Source of the DNA: Acuticoccus sp. MNP-M23
Lineage (GTDB): Bacteria; Pseudomonadota; Alphaproteobacteria; Rhizobiales; Amorphaceae
Assembly: GCF_031195445.1 (NCBI RefSeq)
Contig: NZ_CP133480.1
Coordinates: 806,001 to 870,000 of the forward strand
Direction: 5' to 3'
DNA length: 64,000 nt
This document shows positions 11,157 to 37,454 of this stretch, piece by piece. The stretch's first letter is position 1. The number at the start of each line of letters is the position of its first letter. The translations under genes were made by a program, and so were the position numbers. The notes under the pieces are model-generated. The model ran no database searches, had not been told where the DNA came from, and saw only the letters and a list, made by a program, of their open reading frames with translations.

Positions 11157-11232
11157 ATTAAGCCCTCCTCCGCGCCTCTTTCACCCAGAAGATGCCACAT
11201 CACGCGGCAACGCCAGAGGGTTTGGACGGCGC

Positions 11233-11450
11233 GCCGCGCCGGAGTCTCACTTGAAAGAGCGAGGGTGTTCCCCCTCGCGCTCCCCCCGTTCGCCACGTGG
11301 CAGGGGTTCAGGACAGATCAGCCGCTTCGCGTCTGCCTTGCCTGAACCCCTGATGCGAGCGTTTCGCGGGCAGCCGCGGGGTCAAGGCCCCGTCCTCGCC
11401 ATGCTCGCCGCCGGCTGCGCGTGGCTCCGGGCGAAGCCTTGACCCCGCCT
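11233..11450 (+). repeat. Structured intergenic repeat, copy 1
   Basis: This element of about 220 bp is homologous to the one at 36243-36459. It holds three nested-order hairpins: GAGCGAGGG (11257-11265) with 11272-11282; CAGGGGTTCAGG (11301-11312) with a perfect 12-base complement at 11341-11352; and a 13-base arm at 11376-11388 with a perfect complement at 11436-11448. Sequence between the arms, for example GTCCTCGCCATGCTCGC and TGCGCGTGGCTCCGGGCG, is almost identical to copy 2. It carries no gene. It resembles the intergenic palindromic repeats known from rhizobia, but I cannot name the family. Confidence 0.85.
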
Positions 11451-36212: not shown

Positions 36213-36242
36213 GGCCGGAGCCAGCAGATTGAGGTCGGCGCT

Positions 36243-36459
36243 GCGCGCCGGCATCTCACTTGAAACGGTGCGAGGTGTTCCCCCTCGCGCTCCCCCATCT
36301 CGCCGACGGGCAGGGATTCAGGGCATCCGGCCGCTGCGCGTCCGACTGTCCTGAGCCCCTGATGCGAGCGTTTTTCGGGCGTCACCGGCGTCAAGGCCAC
36401 GTCCTCGCCATGCTCGCCTGCGGCTGCGCGTGGCTCCGGGCGCGGCCTTGACGCCGGCG
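36243..36459 (+). repeat. Structured intergenic repeat, copy 2
   Basis: This is homologous along its length to the element at 11233-11450 and in the same orientation. It keeps the second stem (36311-36322 with 36350-36361, with one mismatch and one wobble) and has a perfect 14-base outer stem (CCGGCGTCAAGGCC at 36385-36398 with 36444-36457). In that stem two base pairs that are G-C in copy 1 are C-G here, with both sides changed. It fills the gap between the aldolase gene and the convergent dipeptide operon. Confidence 0.85.
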
Positions 36460-36464
36460 ATGCC

Positions 36465-37454
36465 CTATCTTGACGGGTGACCGAGGGGGAAGTGGCAGGC
36501 GCTGGTGTGGCTGCCGTCATCGCCGTGCGCTGCGAGGGGGGGCTGTTCGCGCTGGCAGACGGGTTCGGCTGCGGGGCAGCGCGCTGCGAACGCGCAGCCT
36601 TGCGGGGGGTCGTATGGGTCGGGGAGCTGCATGTCCTCGTCTTCGGCAACGTCCAGCGGGCGGCCGGGGGCTGGCACGCTGCGCAGGAGAAGTGCCGTGT
36701 AGTGGTGCTGCGGGCGGGCAAACACCGTGCGAACGGGACCCACCTCCGCCACCTTGCCGAAATAAAGGATCGCAACGCGGTCGCTCACGGCCTCGACCAC
36801 CGAAAGGTCGTGGCTGATGAAGACGAATGTGAGACCGAGCCGCGCCTTCAGCTCCGCCAGAAGGTTGAGCACCTGCGCCTGCATCGAAACGTCCAGCCCT
36901 GAAACCGGCTCATCCAGCACAAGAAGCTGAGGGTCCGCTGCAAGCGCCCGCGCAATGCCCACCCGCTGCGCCTGCCCGCCGGAAAGCTCATGCGGATAGC
37001 GCTCCAGAAAGGACGGGTCGAGATTGACCAGCGCCATCAGCTCAGCGAGCCGGTCCTTGCGTTTTTCGGCGCCAAGCGCGGTCAGGTGACGCAGTGGAAT
37101 TTCGAGCGCGGCTCGGATGGTCTTGCGCGGATTGAGGGCGGCCGAATTGTCCTGAAAGACGTATTGGGTGACGCGGGCAGTTTCCGCGCGGCGGGCACCT
37201 GGCGTGATTGCGCCGCCCTCGCCTTCGATGCGGATGGTGCCGGCCGTGGGCGCATCAAGGCCCACCATCATCCGCGCGAGCGTTGATTTTCCGCAGCCGG
37301 ATTCTCCCACCACGCCCAGCGTTTCGCCCTTTCGGACGGCAAGCGATACGCCGCGCACTGCGTGAACCGCCGGGGCCGAACCGCCGAAGAGCCGGCGGCC
37401 GCCGCCAAAGGTGCGCACCAGGTCTGAAATCTGCATCACACTGTCAGACGGCAT
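36465..37454 (-). CDS. Dipeptide/oligopeptide ABC transporter ATPase (DppF/OppF-like)
   Basis: This 329-residue ATPase has Walker A GESGCGKST (about residues 50-58), Q-loop VFQDNSAALNPRK, signature LSGGQAQRVGIARA and Walker B LLVLDEPVSGLDVSMQ. The C-terminal oligopeptide-transporter domain contains four Cys (PQGCAFAARCPAAEPVC...C), a pattern known to bind an iron-sulfur cluster in DppD/DppF proteins. It is the last gene of the leftward dpp-like operon and overlaps the fused permease-ATPase gene by 11 bases. Confidence 0.9.
   Translation of the reverse strand: MPSDSVMQISDLVRTFGGGRRLFGGSAPAVHAVRGVSLAVRKGETLGVVGESGCGKSTLARMMVGLDAPTAGTIRIEGEGGAITPGARRAETARVTQYVFQDNSAALNPRKTIRAALEIPLRHLTALGAEKRKDRLAELMALVNLDPSFLERYPHELSGGQAQRVGIARALAADPQLLVLDEPVSGLDVSMQAQVLNLLAELKARLGLTFVFISHDLSVVEAVSDRVAILYFGKVAEVGPVRTVFARPQHHYTALLLRSVPAPGRPLDVAEDEDMQLPDPYDPPQGCAFAARCPAAEPVCQREQPPLAAHGDDGSHTSACHFPLGHPSR

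Follow-up and report, generated by a model that had tools for sequence, protein, structure and literature searches.

Among the structured intergenic repeats of alphaproteobacteria are the RIME, Bru-RS and ABC elements of the Rhizobiales, all of which are mosaic. A different organization characterizes the REP/RAYT system, in which, according to the available text of PMC3733652, the unit is a single palindrome of 20–40 nt carrying an unpaired GTAG or CGTC tag, a form that the element described here does not take. Mobile DNA offers a further term of comparison, namely the integrase-trio elements of the GInt, RIT and SE types (PMC5385486, PMC3414803, PMC10214605): the parts of these papers available to us mention, for RIT, an inverted repeat overlapped by a palindrome, and describe no multi-hairpin site.

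Here we report that a folded non-coding repeat of about 225 nt is dispersed between genes throughout the genus Acuticoccus. No description of the element or of its motif was found in the literature searched, although an earlier one may exist in the original RIME, Bru-RS or RIT papers.

Organization of the Two Copies in the Window

The window, that is, the whole stretch of 64,000 nt of Acuticoccus sp. MNP-M23 that was analysed, had been reported in a previous sequence-only reading to contain two copies of a structured repeat in the same orientation. The alignment of copy 1 with copy 2 bears this out over about 225 nt. Both copies lie where that reading had placed them, with real limits slightly wider than it gave (11224..11448 for copy 1 and 36233..36465 for copy 2), and the open reading frames agree that copy 1 is flanked by divergent genes and copy 2 by convergent genes. 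Each copy is defined by a match to our models R1 and R2 (G000:C1:817224-817371, corresponding to window positions 11224-11371, and G000:C1:842233-842380, corresponding to 36233-36380) together with the hairpin H4. The parts run from H1 to H4 on the plus strand; the whole copies and H4 are nevertheless assigned to the minus strand, that being the strand on which H4 tolerates wobble pairs, while H2, the core and H3 were given no strand.

Instead of the three hairpins originally proposed, the order of the parts is H1, H2, a small core stem, H3 and H4. Specifically, H1 (11227..11241, plus strand, in copy 1; 36236..36250, plus strand, in copy 2) has a 6-bp stem and a 3-nt loop in copy 1, and over 81 copies 95.1% of its cells are paired, with two-sided changes in all six pairs. 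H2 (11259..11278 and 36270..36288) has the stem GCGAGGG / CCCTCGC in copy 1 and 91.7% of cells paired; in H1 and H2 of copy 2 the pairing is as in copy 1. H3 (11302..11351 and 36312..36360) consists of an outer and an inner helix, paired in 89.5% and 94.0% of cells, respectively, over the same 81 copies. H4 (11376..11448 and, as located by a stem search, 36377..36465, both minus strand) shows in copy 1 the arrangement GTCAAGG...CCTTGAC enclosed by a variable outer stem, and in both copies a loop of the C type, which is found in 32 of 71 H4s. This is the largest stem of the earlier description, whose 13 contiguous Watson–Crick pairs in copy 1 are confirmed, as are the two positions at which a G-C pair in one copy is a C-G pair in the other; for copy 2 we count at least 13 pairs, where 14 had been given.

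The reverse strand of both copies folds beyond dinucleotide shuffles (z −5.5 and −6.2; none of 200 shuffles equal). At gathering scores, Rfam covariance models matched nothing in the window or in four further loci; in 11 loci searched up to E 2, the element itself was hit by none of them.

Compensatory Changes and an Invariant Core

To build the model R1 we used an alignment (A1) of 12 near-complete copies of the genome of origin. The 81 matches at E ≤1e-6 among 95 loci searched with R1, which come from eight genomes, were then fitted to R1 to give alignment A2. On A2 the R1 structure pairs 89.8% of cells, compared with 77.5% in shuffled alignments; since A2 was fitted to R1, such figures favour that model's own helices. 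When the two small stems S1 and S2, described below, are included, the values over the 81 copies become 93.2% and 77.4%. In this refined structure, two-sided changes occur in 30 of 36 pairs and amount to 360 cells versus 79.3 in shuffles, none of 500 shuffles being as high, while sliding the structure along the alignment reduces pairing to 37–47%. The enclosing stem P1 of the first model was dropped, since one of its positions is paired in no more than 39 of 81 cells.

When every pair of columns was scanned without reference to the model, an invariant core missed by the sequence-only reading emerged, CC-nnn-TCG[C/G]C-nnn-n-G[G/C]CA. The two best-ranked column pairs, 131-139 and 130-140, both lie outside R1; pair 132-138, which completes S1, ranks fourth, and pair 136-143, which belongs to S2, ranks 15. 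S1 and S2 are absent from R1, one stem of which overlapped their columns. They are 3-bp stems with no base in common, interleaved around the invariant loop TCG[C/G]C. The core reads CC CGT TCGCC ACG T GGC A in copy 1 (11285..11302; S1, 11287-11289 with 11295-11297; S2, 11292-11294 with 11299-11301) and CC ATC TCGCC GAC G GGC A, with one A.C in S1, in copy 2 (36295..36312). In S1, with 97.9% of cells paired, 100 cells are changed on both sides relative to the commonest pair, none on one side, and 5 are unpaired. S2 is paired in 100% of cells, its covariation resting on pair 136-143 (C-G in 71 copies, G-C in 10), since the other two of its three pairs never vary and are uninformative. As the two stems interleave and both covary, the core may form a mini-pseudoknot, or the stems may form in alternation; a true pseudoknot would probably be sterically tight, as only one variable base links the stems.

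All together, the covariation in 81 copies from eight genomes strongly supports the earlier suggestion that pairing is under selection. The expectation that the outer stem should persist in further copies also held: H4 was located by script in 71 of 81 copies, and its outer stem is paired in these. The arms of H4 are long and nearly perfect, and their sequence changes freely.

Strand Asymmetry of the Mismatches

In the outer stem of the 71 H4s, the mismatches enclosed by two Watson–Crick pairs are A.C or C.A in 45 cases and G.T or T.G in 2, the 45 not being independent, as they are shared among related copies; the other mismatches are C.C (55), C.T (16) and others (8). A recount on longer arms gave 50 A.C against 2 G.T, in the same direction in all eight genomes. 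Since an A.C mismatch on the plus strand is a wobble pair on the reverse strand, the pairing of H4 appears to be constrained on the minus strand. Selection thus seems to see the single-strand folding of the minus strand in H4, as RNA or as ssDNA. S1 agrees with this bias (A.C 4, G.T 0) and in H3 it is mild (A.C 46, G.T 32), whereas H1 (GT 8, AC 5) and H2 (GT 7, AC 2) show no minus-strand bias. Pooled over all A2 helices the counts between Watson–Crick pairs are even (GT 42, AC 39), as was a first whole-helix wobble count (107 to 100): the asymmetry is visible per helix only, in H4. Judged by eye against a sampled and noisy GC skew, the copies show no preference for either replication strand.

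On the same minus strand, downstream of the TTGAC of H4, there is an A at +18 and a T at +22, each in 69 of 71 copies and at fixed spacing, and the base of H3 carries a purine in 62 of 71; the constancy of TTGAC itself is built in, the alignment being anchored on it. This promoter-like arrangement would suit a candidate RNA gene or a candidate ssDNA promoter.

Copies in the Genus and Their Gain or Loss

The search of the genome and its relatives with a model, proposed in the earlier description, yielded far more than two copies, namely about 135 in all eight Acuticoccus genomes. With R2 at E ≤1e-3 per genome, and after removal by eye of five reverse-strand echoes, the genomes hold from 2 to 39 places (G002 39, G006 27, G007 19, G004 17, G000 16, G003 11, G001 4, G005 2). 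The 16 distinct places of the genome of origin (G000) derive from 19 rows, three of which are such echoes; in the same genome R1 finds 13 places at E <1e-8, and blastn with copy 1 gives 17 matches including copy 1 itself. R1 has matches in 8/8 genomes of the genus and none in 53 other sampled genomes, two of the same family among them. On the G000 chromosome (C1) the orientation of the 16 places comes in long runs (minus at 1.5–2.4 Mb, plus at 2.7–4.0 Mb, minus at 4.6–0.27 Mb, plus at 0.31–0.84 Mb) and shows no evident relation to GC skew.

Copies cluster by genome, with 18 label changes on a 149-column tree against 53.4 when shuffled (0 of 200 shuffles as low). The 16 copies of G007 form one clade (100/92) and those of G006 need 10 changes, on a tree whose bootstrap is not settled. 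In all eight G004 copies tested (of 17 places), the orthologous G006 locus is free of the element, with both flanks syntenic in six cases and the left flank only in two; no target duplication or exact junction can be read at these empty sites, the flanks being only 79–90% identical. The other two of the ten G004 copies in A2 share their site with G006, and there the stems are compensated (L068/L101, L080/L107). In one orthologous gap the element lies in opposite orientations in G007 and G002 (L088/L117). Copies have, in conclusion, been gained or lost between species, and gain, that is mobility rather than loss, would be our reading of it. A fourth locus pair (L050/L074) shows weak matches on both flanks.

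Further observations concern single loci: in L094 and L051 the loop of H4 is interrupted by extra palindromic sequence, as if inserted into the hairpin, and the 3-kb locus L064, which holds one G002 copy, also contains a serC leader RNA (RF00517; L064:177-228).

Placement Relative to Genes

Neighbouring genes were assigned with a codon-score gene caller, and 75 of the 81 copies could be classified: 48 lie between convergent genes, 14 and 10 between codirectional ones and 3 between divergent ones; five have no neighbour and one falls inside a gene call. Compared with gaps of at least 50 nt (n=204) called in the same way in a 480-kb sample of two of the eight genomes, the element is clearly enriched between convergent genes (48/75 versus 34/204, or 17%; p 7e-20) and depleted between divergent ones (3/75 versus 43/204; p 3e-5), copy 1 of the window being one of the divergent exceptions. 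The convergent count may be low, since copy 2 of the window (L022) was called codirectional (>E>) and is convergent by its open reading frames.

H1 overlaps a called gene end, or follows it within 40 nt, in 48 of the 81 copies, and a T-rich stretch follows H1 in 25/81, compared with 313/9600 in the background. T-runs follow H2 on the minus strand in 11/81 copies. After H4 they occur in none of 71 copies on the minus strand and in 7/71 on the plus strand; several G007 copies (L047, L067, L090) have such plus-strand runs with the look of intrinsic terminators.

Relatives on Plasmids and Other Mobile DNA

In a class-wide sample of 385 genomes, four beyond the genome of origin have one match each under strict filters (G101, G401, G437, G223). 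Plasmids proved richer: 35 plasmid records contain parts matching copy 1, and the 182-nt form of a Rhizobium plasmid, used as query, finds at least 80% of the element in 20 plasmid records, in which the similarity stops near the same GGACGTCTG. Twelve of these 20 plasmids were opened, and in all 12 the H1 end is turned towards the beginning of a gene, or gene piece, for a tyrosine recombinase. A tblastn search with a single GinA was used to assign the type of neighbour, which is ginA-like in 10/12, with seven genes intact (L256, L258, L259, L290-L293), one split (L260) and two in pieces (L288, L289), while in L257 and L287 the neighbour is an integrase distantly related to GinA, whose gene starts 14–15 nt from the element; a ginA-like identity for all 12 neighbours is thereby ruled out. 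Since the recombinase differs in these two loci, the element is more constant than the gene adjoining it, and the two seem to be exchanged separately.

The element is also found in other company. Core-H3-H4 is carried by a Klebsiella plasmid of 2970 bp that has mobV and a Rep_1 gene (PF01446, E 2e-89), the latter a signature of rolling-circle replication. In the assembly of origin, a 31-kb contig (C5) encoding MobA/MobL and resolvase genes contains the core and H3. In L143, from a Rhodospira MAG, the element lies 17 nt from the gene of another tyrosine recombinase; this protein gave no tblastn match to GinA and was rejected as a GInt protein, and a search made without a positive control found it in 0/8 Acuticoccus genomes. 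In L251 and L252 the element adjoins an uncharacterised gene, near a tRNA in L251 and near an integrase in L252. The protein encoded next to the element in these two genomes of one genus (L251:205-1752 and L252:1376-2266) has the HUH-like motif 'HLNMHSHVLM', recognised by eye, and no Pfam or PHROGs match; it was set aside, since a search lacking a positive control did not find it in Acuticoccus. Finally, in L262-L264, the three plasmids opened far enough to show it, the operon comprises a trio of recombinase-like genes plus a small fourth ORF, an arrangement that domain matches and the available parts of PMC5385486 and PMC10214605 allow us to liken to GInts.

Candidate mobilising enzymes were sought in the genus itself. 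GinB was found in none of seven of the eight Acuticoccus genomes, with two control plasmids positive, and G001 gave one weak match of 61 residues (E 9e-4). The Y1 transposase (PF01797) was found in 0/8, with controls positive in 5 of 14 named genomes. A REP/RAYT origin was rejected: the reverse strand of H2 does consist of GGAG, presumably a REP tag, plus a palindrome, but PF01797 is absent from the genus.

Outside these groups, IMG/VR gave no match to a strict pattern, phages gave one 39-nt match and none with the plasmid form as query, and E. coli genomes gave none with the Klebsiella form. At least 80 loci resembling H2 in Rhodobacteraceae and other phyla were set aside as shorter units; among the 80 listed, R1 recognises the Acuticoccus records and L143 and, weakly, the pseudomonadal L179 (E 0.06). 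Several Rhodobacteraceae records (within L126-L205, e.g., L126, L127, L187 and L194) carry a shorter hairpin, GCGAGGGGTTCCACCCCTCGCGCTCCCCGGAGTATTTTT or close variants, and the same H2-like palindrome appears in 45-nt tandem arrays in gammaproteobacterial MAGs.

Discussion

We propose, with a probability of roughly one in two, that a structured, putatively single-strand-folding site of mobile DNA gave rise to the element, which was then amplified in chromosomes as a dispersed non-coding repeat. On plasmids and integrative elements the ancestral site would adjoin a recombinase or replication gene, and would probably act while the minus strand is single-stranded, when H4, H3, the mini-pseudoknot core and H2 could fold and be recognised by replication or recombination proteins, in the manner of single-strand origins and attC-like sites. 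What the occurrences outside Acuticoccus share is mobile DNA carrying such genes, and this, together with a fold specific to one strand and the invariance of the core, suggests that the site is recognised as ssDNA in the course of replication, transfer or recombination. In Acuticoccus the site would have multiplied without its gene, as a non-autonomous element gained or lost between species, and its copies would persist mainly between convergent genes, where they may do least harm and may offer a hairpin to the mRNA 3' end of each neighbour. Several observations count against this proposal: searches of the genus for a mobilising enzyme, covering GinB and Y1 transposase, were negative apart from the weak GinB match in G001, H1 and H2 show no minus-strand wobble bias and H3 a mild one, the pooled helices are even, the mismatches of H4 are shared among related copies, no bias relative to the replication strand was seen, and the empty sites offer no readable junction.

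A serious rival, although we hold it rather unlikely as a full account, is that the host selects the element as a two-sided 3'-end structure, similar to BIME/REP or to a bidirectional terminator, with H1 in the plus-strand RNA ending one mRNA and H4 in the minus-strand RNA protecting the opposing 3' end. The strong preference for convergent gaps and avoidance of divergent ones, the proximity of H1 to gene ends, the T-rich stretches after it and the wobble polarity, on the minus strand for H4 and weakly on the plus strand for H1, are all what it predicts. It fits poorly with the lack of T-runs after H4 on the minus strand, with the element-free orthologous gene pairs in 6/6 cases with both flanks in place, and with the core and the position beside recombinase genes on plasmids, which it leaves unexplained. 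In addition, the A.C bias persists in H4s facing no called 3' end (A.C 6, G.T 0, n=9; 7 and 1 when one misclassified copy is included), even if such mismatches may be inherited. Such a host role may be a secondary one.

Quite improbable, in our judgement, is a minus-strand small-RNA gene with TTGAC in H4 as its −35, the A...T linker as a −10-like element, a start at H3, the pseudoknot core and H2 as terminator. The A, T and purine at fixed spacing, the T-runs after H2 and the good folding of the minus strand would suit it, but TTGAC is the alignment anchor, the spacing shifts by 2-nt steps in plasmid and Klebsiella copies (by eye), the strongest strand bias lies in H4, outside such an RNA, and Rfam has no match. 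The long, near-perfect arms with free sequence, above all in H4, could also reflect a mutational process rather than selection, such as quasi-palindrome correction during replication. This process predicts neither 3-bp core stems covarying around an invariant loop nor the strand-specific asymmetry of A.C versus G.T, and we consider it already disfavoured and very improbable indeed.

Descent from a mobile-DNA site thus being our preferred reading, the element represents a concrete and testable candidate for a folded DNA site used by mobile elements and inherited by chromosomes. In our judgement, few bacterial intergenic repeats combine covariation this clear, a strand of action legible from sequence and relatives beside recombinase or replication genes. 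The same fold beside such genes on the plasmids of other bacteria suggests that mobile DNA spread into chromosomes.

Comparison with Known Systems

REP/BIME and CGTC repeats, as far as they are covered in the available text of PMC3733652, share with the element their nature of intergenic palindromes at gene 3' ends for which no transposase was found, and differ from it in architecture, the element being about 225 nt long with four hairpins and a core in fixed order. On alphaproteobacterial plasmids the element adjoins the beginning of the leading gene in an integrase operon, a position that recalls GInt, RIT and SE elements; it departs from these in that the Acuticoccus copies are without GinB and the element adjoins other genes as well. 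As regards MITEs, no inverted repeat of at least 16/20 links the end of the element to the opposite side of the trio in the two plasmids compared, and one isolated 12-of-14 inverted match in L263 was taken as chance. Rolling-circle carriage, by which a single-strand origin can be judged, is found in a single case, the Klebsiella Rep_1 plasmid.

The likeness to ssi, or single-strand origins, and to Frpo, drawn in part from the available text of PMC11541004 and otherwise from general knowledge, is one of description: a multi-hairpin non-coding plasmid site, on conjugative as well as Rep_1 plasmids, with TTGAC within a stem and strand-specific folding in H4. Unlike ssi and Frpo, the element also exists as solitary, dispersed chromosomal copies. 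A putative ssi/Frpo-like site with a 17-nt mini-pseudoknot, common to alphaproteobacterial conjugative plasmids, integrase trios and a Klebsiella Rep_1/mobV plasmid and self-spreading in Acuticoccus chromosomes, is an identification that we put forward tentatively, as an unlikely one.
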